Part shown: positions 20,119 to 39,101 of the stretch, one piece after another
Position numbering within the stretch: position 1 is the first letter of the stretch
How the letters are laid out: every line of letters begins with the position of its first letter
Assembly: GCA_025353765.1 (NCBI GenBank)
Contig: JANXOD010000016.1
Span: 310,001-374,000, forward strand
DNA length: 64,000 nucleotides
Reading direction: 5' to 3'
Source of the DNA: Sphingobacteriales bacterium
GTDB lineage: Bacteria > Bacteroidota > Bacteroidia > Sphingobacteriales > Sphingobacteriaceae
Notes under the pieces: generated by a model
What the model saw: only the letters and a program-made list of their open reading frames with translations
What the model was told of the DNA's origin: nothing
Databases searched by the model: none
Position numbers and translations under genes: made by a program

Positions 20119-20197
20119 GGGCGTTCGGGCAGGCTTTTCTTTGCAATCTTTTTGCCACAAAAAGGCAAAAGGATTTCCACTACAATCCTTAACGCAA
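20119..20197. repeat. Possible dispersed intergenic repeat (REP-like) with internal hairpin
   Basis: GGGCGTT...AACGC ends, internal TTTTGCC-ACAAAAA-GGCAAAA hairpin, low resemblance to flanks; copy number not testable here. Confidence 0.4.
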
Positions 20198-20286
20198 ACC
20201 TTAATGCCCTAAAACATATTGTGCTACAAGGAGGTAAACACGCACTAATTCATTTTTTTGAAACCGGGCTCGACCTTCATTAATAA

Positions 20287-33261: not shown

Positions 33262-34101
33262 ATGAAAAATAAGAGGGTAATAAGTATTTTGGGTTGTGGT
33301 TGGCTGGGATTACGGCTTGCAAAAAATTTAATTTCAAAAGGTTGTTCTGTTAAAGGATCTACAACCACTGCCGAGAAACTAATTACGTTAAAATCTATAG
33401 GAATTGACCCGTATTTGATACAATTTTCGGTTTCTGGGGATGTTTCCCCTCTTTCAGATTTTCTTAATACGGATGTTCTTGTCATCGCAATTCCGCCGGG
33501 AAAAAGAAATACTGATAGCCAGGAGAATTATCATCACATGATTAATCAGCTTGTTGCTTTGTTGCCCAACAGCATGGCGAAAAAACTAATTTTCATTAGT
33601 TCAACTTCTGTTTATGGAGATACGAATAGTATAGTTAATGAAAATACTCCCCCTCAACCCAATACCGATTCAGGAAAATTGCTTGTTGATGTTGAAAATC
33701 AATTACTTCAGCTTAAAAATATAGATGTAATTATTTTAAGATTAGCAGGTTTAATTGGTCCGGGAAGATCACCAGCCAGATTTTTTGCCGGAAAAACCAA
33801 CATTCCTAACGGACTTGCTCCGGTTAATTTAATTCATCTGGATGATGCTATAAGCCTGTTTTGTAAAGTAATTGAAACTCCAAAAAACAATGGAATTTAT
33901 AATGGCTGTGCGCCAAAACACTCTACAAAACAAGATTTTTATACACTTGCTGCACAAAAAGAAACATTAACACTTCCGCAATTTTTACCAGAAAAAAAAA
34001 GATGGAAAACAGTAAATAGCGGACGGTTAAAACAAGAGCTTAATTTTGAATTTAAGTATGCAGATTTGATGGGATATATTTTAACCGGTCCCAAACTATA
34101 A
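33262..34101 (+). CDS. NAD(P)-dependent epimerase/SDR (YeeZ-like)
   Basis: ISILGCGWLGLRLAKNLISKGCSVKGSTTT, FISSTSVYGDTN. Confidence 0.9.
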   Translation: MKNKRVISILGCGWLGLRLAKNLISKGCSVKGSTTTAEKLITLKSIGIDPYLIQFSVSGDVSPLSDFLNTDVLVIAIPPGKRNTDSQENYHHMINQLVALLPNSMAKKLIFISSTSVYGDTNSIVNENTPPQPNTDSGKLLVDVENQLLQLKNIDVIILRLAGLIGPGRSPARFFAGKTNIPNGLAPVNLIHLDDAISLFCKVIETPKNNGIYNGCAPKHSTKQDFYTLAAQKETLTLPQFLPEKKRWKTVNSGRLKQELNFEFKYADLMGYILTGPKL

Positions 34102-34180
34102 AACAAAACTATCCTATACTATTTCTTATTTTTTACCAAAATATAAAAAACTAAAATAGTATAAGTATGTTTATATAATT

Positions 34181-34276
34181 GAAAGCTTACTTTGGGGTGG
34201 TTTCTTAGGAAACCTGAGAATATACCCATTGAACCTGATCTGGATAATACCAGCGAAGGAATATAAAGAGGCTTTC
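34181..34276 (+). ncRNA. TPP riboswitch (THI element)
   Basis: TTTGGGGTG, CTGAGAATATACCC, GAACCTGATCTGGATAATACCAGCGAAGGAA; P1 closed by GAAAGC (34181) / GCTTTC (34276). Confidence 0.95.
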
Positions 34277-34277
34277 A

Positions 34278-34312
34278 AAGGGTTTTGGTGCAGATCAAAA
34301 CCCTTGTTTATT
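34278..34312 (+). terminator. Terminator hairpin just after the TPP aptamer
   Basis: AAGGGTTTTG-GTGCAGAT-CAAAACCCTT followed by GTTTATTTT. Confidence 0.75.
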
Positions 34313-34346
34313 TTGGGATAGTATATCATATTCTATCCCAAAATAA
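34308..34346. terminator. Second strong hairpin, possibly bidirectional terminator
   Basis: TTATTTTGGGATAG...CTATCCCAAAATAA perfect 14-bp arms. Confidence 0.6.
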
Positions 34347-34387
34347 TAATACAAATAAAAAAGGATCAAGTAATTCTCAATCCTTTA

Positions 34388-34462
34388 TGGTAGCCTCGAC
34401 CAGAATCGAACTGGTATCTAAAGTTTAGGAAACTTCTATTCTATCCGTTGAACTACGAGGCC
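34388..34462 (-). tRNA. tRNA-Arg (anticodon CCT)
   Basis: GGCCTCG acceptor / CGAGGCT, GTTCGATTC T-loop, anticodon arm GAAGT-TTCCTAA-ACTTT; CCA appears encoded. Confidence 0.9.
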
Positions 34463-34582: not shown

Positions 34583-35401
34583 TTACAGGTATTTCTTATA
34601 CAAATTATACAACACCTTTTTATCTTCAACAGTTAATACTGCAGTTAAGTCTGTTTGGATAAAATGCAGTTTAAATGCTTTAATAGCTGCAGTAAGGTCT
34701 GTAGTGTCATAGCCTATGATCCTTAAAGCTTCTGCCGGATTAAATGTTTCAGGAACGCTATCTACAAGAATAGAATCCTGCCATTTCCCAAACCCCAATT
34801 CAGAAAGCCTTTTCCAAGGGAAATTTGCATTTGGATCATTTTTACGTGTGGGAGCAATATCTGCATGACCAATAAAATTAGCTGTTGGAATACTGTAATC
34901 CTTTTTTACAGATGTTAATACCGTAATCAAGCTCTTTATTTGTGGTTCCGCAAAAGGTTCAAATCCATTATTATCCAGTTCAATTCCAATAGATGATGAG
35001 TTAATATCTGTCTGATTCCCCCATTTACCGTTACCAGCATGCCATGCTCGTAAATAATCATTTAACATGTGATATACCATTCCATCTTTGCCAATTATAT
35101 AATGGGCACTCACCTGTGTTCTTGGGAGCGTAAATGTTTTTAAGGTTTCCTCTGTTGAGTTTTGTGCGGTATGGTGAATGATCACATAGTTAGGCTTTCG
35201 CAAACTAAAATTGGTAGTTCCAACCCAGTCTTGTCCGGGTATTGGGTCAGGTAATTGCCGGATGGTTTTAGCTAATTCTTTTACCTGCTTTTTATAAATC
35301 CGGTTGGTGGAAGCATAAGGGTTAATAGCGCAGGAGGTAATGGTTGTTGCTATCGCGATAGCAAGAAAAAAGAAATTAAATGTACCGCGAATTTGCATCA
35401 T
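34583..35401 (-). CDS. N-acetylmuramoyl-L-alanine amidase (AmpD-like), lipoprotein
   Basis: TSCAIN lipobox; VIIHHTAQNSTEETLKTF, AWHAGNGKWGNQTDINSSSIGIELDNNG, FIGHADIAPTRKNDPNANFPW. Confidence 0.93.
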   Translation of the reverse strand: MMQIRGTFNFFFLAIAIATTITSCAINPYASTNRIYKKQVKELAKTIRQLPDPIPGQDWVGTTNFSLRKPNYVIIHHTAQNSTEETLKTFTLPRTQVSAHYIIGKDGMVYHMLNDYLRAWHAGNGKWGNQTDINSSSIGIELDNNGFEPFAEPQIKSLITVLTSVKKDYSIPTANFIGHADIAPTRKNDPNANFPWKRLSELGFGKWQDSILVDSVPETFNPAEALRIIGYDTTDLTAAIKAFKLHFIQTDLTAVLTVEDKKVLYNLYKKYL

Positions 35402-37436: not shown

Positions 37437-39101
37437 ATGAAAAAAATCACATTCATAACAGCATTATCTTTTATTATAGGCTTATCAGCTTGTAACAACA
37501 GCAATAAAACGACCTTAGCCTCTCATACAGATCAAGCGGATTCATTACAGGCTTATGTAGCAGACCGCCTTCCTATTTATGAAAAAGTAAAACTCACCAC
37601 AGATCTTAACCAGCTAAGTGCGTGCGAGCGTAAAATGTTGCCCTTGCTTATTCAGGCCGCACAGATTATGGATGAATTGTTTTGGAAACAAACCTATCCT
37701 CAACGGGATAGTTTGCTGAATGTGCTAAAAGATGAAAAAACAAAAGAGTTTATTAAAATTAATTACGGACCATGGGACAGATTAAATGGCGATAAACCAT
37801 TTGTTGCTAGTATTGGACCCAAACCAGAAGGTTCTGGTTTTTATCCTGCTAATATGACCAAAGAAGAACTGGCAAAATCCGATGTGAAAGATAAACAGGG
37901 ATTATACTCTGTGATTCGCAGAAATGCTTCCGGCAAATTAGAATCCATTCCATATCATGTACTATATAAAACTGAACTTGAAAAAGCTTCTGATTTGTTA
38001 AAACAAGCCGCGGCTCTAAGCGATGAACCTCAGCTTAAAAAATATCTTACACTACGGGCTGAAGCTTTAATTACGGACGATTATACTGCAAGTGATTATG
38101 CCTGGATGGACATGACAAATAACGGTTTGGATATTATTATAGGCCCTATTGAAAATTATGAAGATGCTCTTTTTAATGCACGGGCAGCTTATGAAAGTTA
38201 TGTTTTAGTAAAAGACAAAGAGTGGAGCAAACGCCTTAAAAAATATGTAAGTATGTTACCAGAATTACAACGCGGCCTTCCTGTTGATGCTGCTTATAAA
38301 AAAGAAACTCCGGGTACAGATTCTCAACTTGCCGCTTTTGATGTAATTTATTATGCCGGTCATTGTAATTCAGGCGGTAAAACTATTGCTGTAAATCTTC
38401 CAAATGATGAAGAGATACAGCAGAAAAAAGGAACCCGGCGTTCACAATTAAAAAATGCGATGAGAGCCAAGTTTGATAAAATAATGGTTCCTATTGCTAA
38501 AGAATTAATTGATAAAGACCAGGAACAATATGTTAAGTTTGATGCCTTTTTTGCAGATGTAATGTTTCATGAAGTAGCACACGGATTAGGAATAAAAAAC
38601 ACCATTACCAGCAAAGGCTACGTTCGCGAAGCTTTACAGGAACAATTCTCATGGTTAGAAGAAGGTAAGGCAGATATTCTGGGTTTATATATGGTTACCA
38701 GCTTATTGAAAAAGGGAGAATTGCAGGGCGATATTAAAGATTATTATACCACTTTTATGGCAGGTATTTTACGGTCGGTGCGTTTTGGTGCAGGCGAAGC
38801 ACATGGAAAAGCTAATATGCTTGCTTTTAATTTCTTCAATAAGAAAGGTGCTTTTCTGCGAAATCCAAATGGAACCTATAAAGTGGATTATGAAAAATTT
38901 GCTTCCGCAATGAATGATTTGAGTAAACTTATCCTTACTCTGCAAGGCAATGGCGATAAAGCAGCAGTAGAAAAAGTACAAAAAGAAATGGCTTTAATTC
39001 ATCCGCAACTAAAATCAGATCTGGACAGATTGGGTAAAAAAGGTATTCCGGTAGATGTAGTTTTTGAACAGGGTGTGGATGTATTAGGCATAAAAAATTA
39101 G
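37437..39101 (+). CDS. Secreted zinc metallopeptidase, M49 (dipeptidyl peptidase III)-like lipoprotein
   Basis: GLSACNNS lipobox; FHEVAHGLGIKN HExxH and SWLEEGKADILGLY; GLDIIIGPIENYEDALFNARAAYESYV. Confidence 0.75.
   Translation: MKKITFITALSFIIGLSACNNSNKTTLASHTDQADSLQAYVADRLPIYEKVKLTTDLNQLSACERKMLPLLIQAAQIMDELFWKQTYPQRDSLLNVLKDEKTKEFIKINYGPWDRLNGDKPFVASIGPKPEGSGFYPANMTKEELAKSDVKDKQGLYSVIRRNASGKLESIPYHVLYKTELEKASDLLKQAAALSDEPQLKKYLTLRAEALITDDYTASDYAWMDMTNNGLDIIIGPIENYEDALFNARAAYESYVLVKDKEWSKRLKKYVSMLPELQRGLPVDAAYKKETPGTDSQLAAFDVIYYAGHCNSGGKTIAVNLPNDEEIQQKKGTRRSQLKNAMRAKFDKIMVPIAKELIDKDQEQYVKFDAFFADVMFHEVAHGLGIKNTITSKGYVREALQEQFSWLEEGKADILGLYMVTSLLKKGELQGDIKDYYTTFMAGILRSVRFGAGEAHGKANMLAFNFFNKKGAFLRNPNGTYKVDYEKFASAMNDLSKLILTLQGNGDKAAVEKVQKEMALIHPQLKSDLDRLGKKGIPVDVVFEQGVDVLGIKN

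Follow-up and report, generated by a model that had tools for sequence, protein, structure and literature searches.

A conserved gene-less TPP aptamer with its own terminator and a promoter-like element: a candidate stand-alone TPP-sensing RNA in the Sphingobacteriaceae

The window, by which we mean the whole 64 kb stretch of DNA analysed here, contains a TPP aptamer followed directly by an intrinsic terminator (Table 1), and we consider it rather likely that this element is an independently transcribed RNA of about 130 nt, predicted to be expressed, probably with the help of an alternative sigma factor, to bind TPP and to act in trans. On sequence comparison, several genera preserve the structure of the unit with no thiamine gene beside it, and the promoter-like element that it carries is unlike that of thi riboswitches. 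A vitamin-sensing RNA thus seems now to be independent of the genes that it would normally control.

Table 1. Features of the element and its surroundings (columns: feature, position in the window, strand, basis)
NAD-dependent epimerase-like gene, upstream	33262..34101	+	part of OmpA-epimerase synteny block
ECF-sigma-like promoter: AAAC (34148-34151), 16-nt spacer, TGTT (34168-34171)	34148..34171	+	pattern, blind search
Predicted stand-alone transcript, about 130 nt	34178..34310	+	inferred from promoter position
TPP aptamer	34181..34276	+	RF00059 score, folds, P1 length, covariation
Intrinsic terminator: hairpin AAAGGGTTTTGGT-GCAG-ATCAAAACCCTTG (34277-34306), then T-run TTTATTTT	34277..34314	+	folding; stem covaries in 12 homologues
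Second hairpin: 14-bp arms 34308-34321 / 34333-34346, 11-nt loop	34308..34346	.	sequence
Terminator of convergent tRNA-Arg gene	about 34353..34386	-	sequence
tRNA-Arg(CCT), convergent, outside element	34388..34462	-	tRNA call
N-acetylmuramoyl-L-alanine amidase (Amidase_2), convergent, outside element	34583..35401	-	domain match

By its score and its contact motifs, the window element is a TPP riboswitch aptamer for which binding of TPP is predicted. A covariance-model search matched it to RF00059 at 34183-34278 on the + strand with 66.9 bits (E 5.8e-11; the gathering cut-off of this model is 54.3 bits), the ligand-contact motifs CUGAGA, ACCUGAUC and CAGCGAAGG are intact, and the contact segments CUGAGA, ACCUGA and GCGxAGG are both present in the window and near-invariant across the homologues described below. 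P1 is formed by 34181-34193 paired with a 3' strand ending at 34276 (11-13 bp), there is no P3a, and the terminator hairpin (dG about -16 kcal/mol) abuts P1 without a gap. The second hairpin, a perfect inverted repeat between the terminator of the RNA and that of the tRNA gene, overlaps the T-run of the former; it is not an obvious terminator, since no T-run accompanies it on either strand, and it is not conserved downstream of the homologues, whose downstream flanks do not align. A mobile element was considered and rejected: except for the match of the second hairpin to its own palindrome, the genome holds no further copy of this hairpin, and the element is not repeated within any genome except for two near-identical copies in one (G371). 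On the + strand no gene follows the terminator for 3.1 kb, up to a peptidase M49 gene at 37437; the intervening reading frames are chance frames of 47-54 aa, and the single frame to span the hairpins (34285-34428, 47 aa) enters the antisense of the tRNA. A first-pass annotation of this DNA had described an orphan TPP aptamer with a terminator on the + strand, a second 14-bp hairpin, tRNA-Arg and amidase genes on the opposite strand, and no same-strand thi, pnuT or TonB gene within at least 3 kb, all of which was borne out. A small conserved ORF after the hairpin, or a relative with the window-type element fused to a thi gene, would have spoken against a small RNA; both were sought and neither was found. 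Elsewhere in the window, at 20123-20198 on the - strand, a Flavo-1 RNA (RF01705, 49.2 bits), a member of a small RNA family of unknown function, lies between two gene blocks.

The host genome (genus Daejeonella; 2.83 Mb in 44 contigs, 99.8% complete) lacks ThiC and contains only one other TPP element, which is weak (32.5 bits) and has a long P3. This second element (G000:C20:209174-209265, +) precedes the gene for a TonB-dependent receptor, followed by that for a type I phosphodiesterase/nucleotide pyrophosphatase (L034:7175-9685 and on), an arrangement possibly concerned with the uptake and hydrolysis of TPP. The assignment to Daejeonella follows from the locus of Daejeonella sp. H1SJ63, which is identical to that of G004, a genome of the same genus. 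The OmpA-epimerase block upstream of the window element is conserved in the genus and the sequence 3' of the epimerase gene varies, placing the locus at a synteny breakpoint. The element is present in one of 20 Daejeonella species; among the genomes searched, no other species of the genus has it beside the epimerase gene, and a pattern search of the contigs of epimerase-bearing relatives gave no TPP aptamer. Such a locus could be a relic, that is, the leader of a thiamine-regulated gene that was lost in this lineage, with promoter, aptamer and terminator not yet decayed. The breakpoint and the absence of ThiC from the host and from most of the genus agree with this explanation, and so do two decayed copies elsewhere in the family. 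One of these (G401:C112:6937-7047), at the locus of the G305 element, no longer has a terminator or a complete P2; the other (G287:C17:89198-89265), at that of the G311 element, keeps promoter, P1 and P3 and has the rest cut off.

The homologues point in another direction. When aptamer plus terminator was compared by blastn with a family sample of 401 Sphingobacteriaceae genomes, matches covering both parts were obtained in other genera. Eight of the matched elements were used to build a covariance model, and this found 12 intact aptamer-plus-terminator elements in these genomes, that of the window included, with scores of 93-133 bits; ordinary TPP riboswitches reach at most 86 bits with the same model and are thus separated from them. 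The 12 elements belong to five genera (g1, g6, g8, g16 and g17) and lie at unrelated loci, and no thiamine gene was found downstream of homologous elements on the same strand. In the alignment of the 12, which was fitted to the model structure and so favours pairing, 96.5% of the cells pair and 14 of the 29 pairs, in P1 and the terminator, show double changes; the doubly changed cells number 44, against a mean of 13.8 in shuffles, and none of 500 shuffles reached this figure. Sliding the partners by one column lowered pairing to 57-66%, and folding each sequence independently gave the same P1 and terminator stems as the model. Between members of the same genus the element is 75-95% identical, with flanks that are mostly far less so (28-79%). 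This comparative pattern indicates that the structure is kept by selection independently of its neighbours. At least 14 elements have both neighbours on the opposite strand, and there the RNA would need a promoter of its own.

Upstream of P1 the window element fits, as a pattern, an ECF-type promoter with an AAC core at -35, a spacer of about 16 nt and CGT/TGT at -10. The ECF consensus is tGTTAC-N16-CGTC, and promoters of this kind are recognised by ECF sigma factors (PMC3397946); a non-canonical promoter of B. thetaiotaomicron with TGTT near -10 has been associated with genes of oxidative stress and of stationary phase (PMC12596196). The position of AAAC and TGTT would put the start of transcription at about 34178, at the foot of P1. 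The pattern AAC-N16-[TC]GT[TC] (as TGTT, CGTT or TGTC) or TTGT was found just 5' of P1 at 17 of 25 stand-alone loci and at none of 127 ordinary ones, with a mean of 0.2 and a maximum of 3 in shuffles, and a spacer of 16 is preferred (21/29). As the motif had first been noticed on these same loci, we ran a blind search of the 401 genomes in which promoter and aptamer core were specified and the terminator was not. There were 22 matches, of which 20 were stand-alone elements (two of them decayed or truncated) and two were chance matches inside coding genes; four intact elements (G092, G096, G133 and G069) and the truncated G287 copy were newly found in this way, and a reversed-pattern control gave no match in the 401 genomes. 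A housekeeping-type promoter pattern, by contrast, is present at 45 of the 127 ordinary loci and at none of the 25 stand-alone loci, and in the 12 core elements the Bacteroidetes housekeeping motif (TTG / TAnnTTTG) occurs no more often than in shuffles. Among the eight stand-alone loci without AAC-N16-TGTT, a TGGCA or TGGTA box lies at -36 to -46 in seven, as against one of 127 ordinary loci; this box resembles the -24 box of sigma-54 promoters, and a good -12 box is missing. The loci with TGGCA/TGGTA upstream are L111, L112, L266, L205, L219, L226 and L028.

Counting all forms, about two dozen intact stand-alone elements are present in seven genera among the 401 family genomes (the 12 core elements, G092, six g4 species, two in G371, and G269, G144 and G070); those of G269 and G144 each have a same-strand frame downstream. 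In the six g4 species (G069, G096, G106, G115, G123 and G133) the element faces gcvP near a DnaA-like gene and has an additional small hairpin between aptamer and terminator. The two G371 elements (G371:C148:3553 and 6468; L196) are 3 kb apart, the first lying directly 3' of a gene for an ACR3-type arsenite pump. A class-wide sample added five elements from other families (G054, G761, G616, G707 and G706). At L211, L219 and L226 (G707, G616 and G706; families f29, f23 and f61) the core is altered (GGGGAGA or AGGAGTG, ACTTGA with CGAAAG) and the terminator is present; these are possibly variant aptamers. We tentatively suggest, at somewhat under even confidence, that the Bacteroidota possess a family of free-standing TPP-sensing RNAs controlled by alternative sigma factors. 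It would be found in several lineages, use two or more types of promoter (AAC-N16-TGTT and TGGCA-type) and, acting in trans, connect thiamine status with signals of stress or of stationary phase.

Comparison with ordinary TPP riboswitches bears on whether the element is a remnant of one. Among TPP loci without a strong terminator, 107 precede ThiS/ThiC/ThiM/TenA/ThiD or TonB genes and four do not, whereas among those with a terminator 25 lack a thiamine or TonB gene and seven, all with weak hairpins, have one; the Fisher p of about 1e-17 overstates the case, as the loci compared are related and were partly picked by the terminator-containing model, yet the contrast is still sharp. The median duplex energy of P1 is -10.1 kcal/mol in stand-alone elements as against -5.3 in ordinary ones. 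As ordinary thi/TonB leaders nearly always lack a terminator, and none of the 127 has the ECF-like promoter, the element does not appear to be a truncated thi leader. Derivation from a thiSC operon in particular was rejected, the thiS-type riboswitches of G004 and G013 from the same genus differing in sequence and being without a terminator. ThiC was found in nine of 17 genomes checked (the carriers and, in addition, a genome with a decayed copy), all 17 have other TPP elements of ordinary kinds, and in some carrier species a complete thi operon has a riboswitch of its own. The stand-alone RNA is thus retained both by species whose thiamine system is intact and by species that lack de novo synthesis. 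The patchy distribution and the two decayed copies imply that the element is dispensable, and the latter also that decay does occur and that the intact copies have escaped it. Given, in addition, that the same gene-less unit of aptamer and terminator recurs in several genera with covarying stems, and that six g4 species retain it at one locus, we regard a relic as improbable.

Most copies face a convergent gene, so that the RNA might alternatively act in cis, read-through at low TPP producing an antisense RNA against the facing gene. This gene, however, varies by genus, being tRNA-Arg/amidase in the window, CinA-like in g8, ArsC-like in g6, and GcvP or others elsewhere, and the window has the tRNA terminator and two hairpins in between. 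Nor did folding of the window reveal the mutually exclusive antiterminator and terminator on which a cis riboswitch relies: in mean-field folding the 5' arm of the terminator pairs with the aptamer at P 0.00. The corresponding value is at most 0.06 in nine of the 12 elements, the window included, so there is no antiterminator in these, and such scant pairing together with the long P1 argues for an unconditional terminator. Partial pairing of the arm with the aptamer is possible in G034, G102 and G305, and P is 0.17-0.53 in G311, G102, G034 and G305. We therefore think antisense control of the facing gene unlikely. Some elements do have a same-strand, non-thiamine gene downstream, and control in cis may take place there. 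With such genes 140-320 nt downstream in G034/G102 (CDP-alcohol phosphatidyltransferase), in G269 (NnrD-like) and at the second G371 copy and in G761 (antiporter), the element could be a cis riboswitch of an unusual sort, controlling non-thiamine genes which inversion has moved away in some lineages; but these genes are unrelated to one another and lie beyond a strong terminator, most copies have no evident antiterminator, and we give this explanation very little weight. For the copies, at least 14, with both neighbours on the opposite strand, regulation in cis would have no common object, and it is on this ground that we infer an RNA acting in trans. The first-pass annotation had offered a stand-alone thiamine-regulated small RNA, a relic of a deleted thiamine operon and control of the convergent tRNA/amidase transcripts as options, and its interpretation is upheld in part. 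The small RNA is favoured by the conserved structure and terminator, the promoter-like element and the varying neighbours; the relic is largely ruled out by closest homologues that are gene-less too, by the ThiC distribution and by the differing upstream element, and control of the tRNA and amidase is unlikely in view of the other genes faced elsewhere.

Our current working hypothesis for the trans-acting RNA is that it is transcribed by an ECF-type sigma factor and that, with the terminator unconditional, it would always be short, so that TPP binding would alter the RNA itself, in its stability or in its contact with an mRNA or a protein. The RNA would thereby act in trans as a signal of thiamine status. 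No conserved single-stranded seed was seen outside the aptamer in the folds of the homologues, and the terminator loops vary; because nearly all of the RNA is paired, base-pairing in trans would need the ligand-free aptamer to refold, and contact might be made through such a refolded aptamer or through a protein. An RNA consisting of almost nothing beyond aptamer and terminator, in which no free segment is conserved and the aptamer core is near-invariant, might also serve as a buffer or decoy for TPP, being induced by stress to high abundance and setting the free TPP pool with no RNA or protein partner. This would require copy numbers near those of the TPP pool, unusual for a single-copy RNA gene, and such a buffer, while possible, is less likely than a trans-acting TPP-sensing RNA and, like the relic, improbable.

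A riboswitch is nearly always taken for the leader of a gene that it controls, and a match with no gene behind it tends to be put down to a relic or an annotation error. The gene-less TPP aptamer described here is conserved together with a terminator of its own and a promoter type missing from ordinary TPP riboswitches, which suggests that vitamin status and an alternative sigma factor may be connected; if the family tentatively suggested above exists, several lineages have a metabolite aptamer that has become an independent regulatory RNA gene. With the TPP riboswitch (THI element, RF00059) it shares the aptamer fold, the contact motifs and a score above the cut-off, and it differs in having no thiamine gene downstream, an unconditional-looking terminator that abuts P1, a stronger P1 and an ECF-like instead of a housekeeping-type promoter. 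MicA and RybB of E. coli are ECF-sigma-dependent small RNAs with their own terminator and a free seed and without a metabolite aptamer; the stand-alone TPP RNA resembles them as a small RNA with an ECF-type promoter and a terminator, but has an aptamer in place of a free seed. Listeria SreA, Rli55 and AspocR are riboswitch RNAs able to act in trans (PMC8079631). The SAM riboswitches SreA and SreB, which act in trans on prfA, are likewise terminated riboswitch RNAs serving as small RNAs, although SreA has, besides, an operon downstream that it controls in cis, whereas the stand-alone TPP copies are mostly without a cis gene (PMC8079631). In the B12 riboswitch RNAs Rli55 and AspocR a metabolite aptamer likewise controls a non-coding RNA and not an mRNA (PMC8079631); there the ligand selects a short or a long, effector-bearing RNA, and in the TPP element neither a longer effector part nor an antiterminator was found. 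For a conserved stand-alone TPP RNA, the literature searched, which included few subscription papers and is thus weak evidence on this point, held no precedent beyond PMC2258182. In that work, as far as its account of orphan aptamers goes, Barrick and Breaker (2007) noted a 'handful' of high-scoring aptamers without a related gene downstream and proposed that trans-acting RNAs, or orphaning in the recent past, might explain them (PMC2258182). Their suggestion of trans-acting aptamer RNAs is now directly testable in cultivable bacteria, and where that account presents its orphans with no analysis of conservation or promoters, the elements described here are conserved as a set and share a promoter signature.
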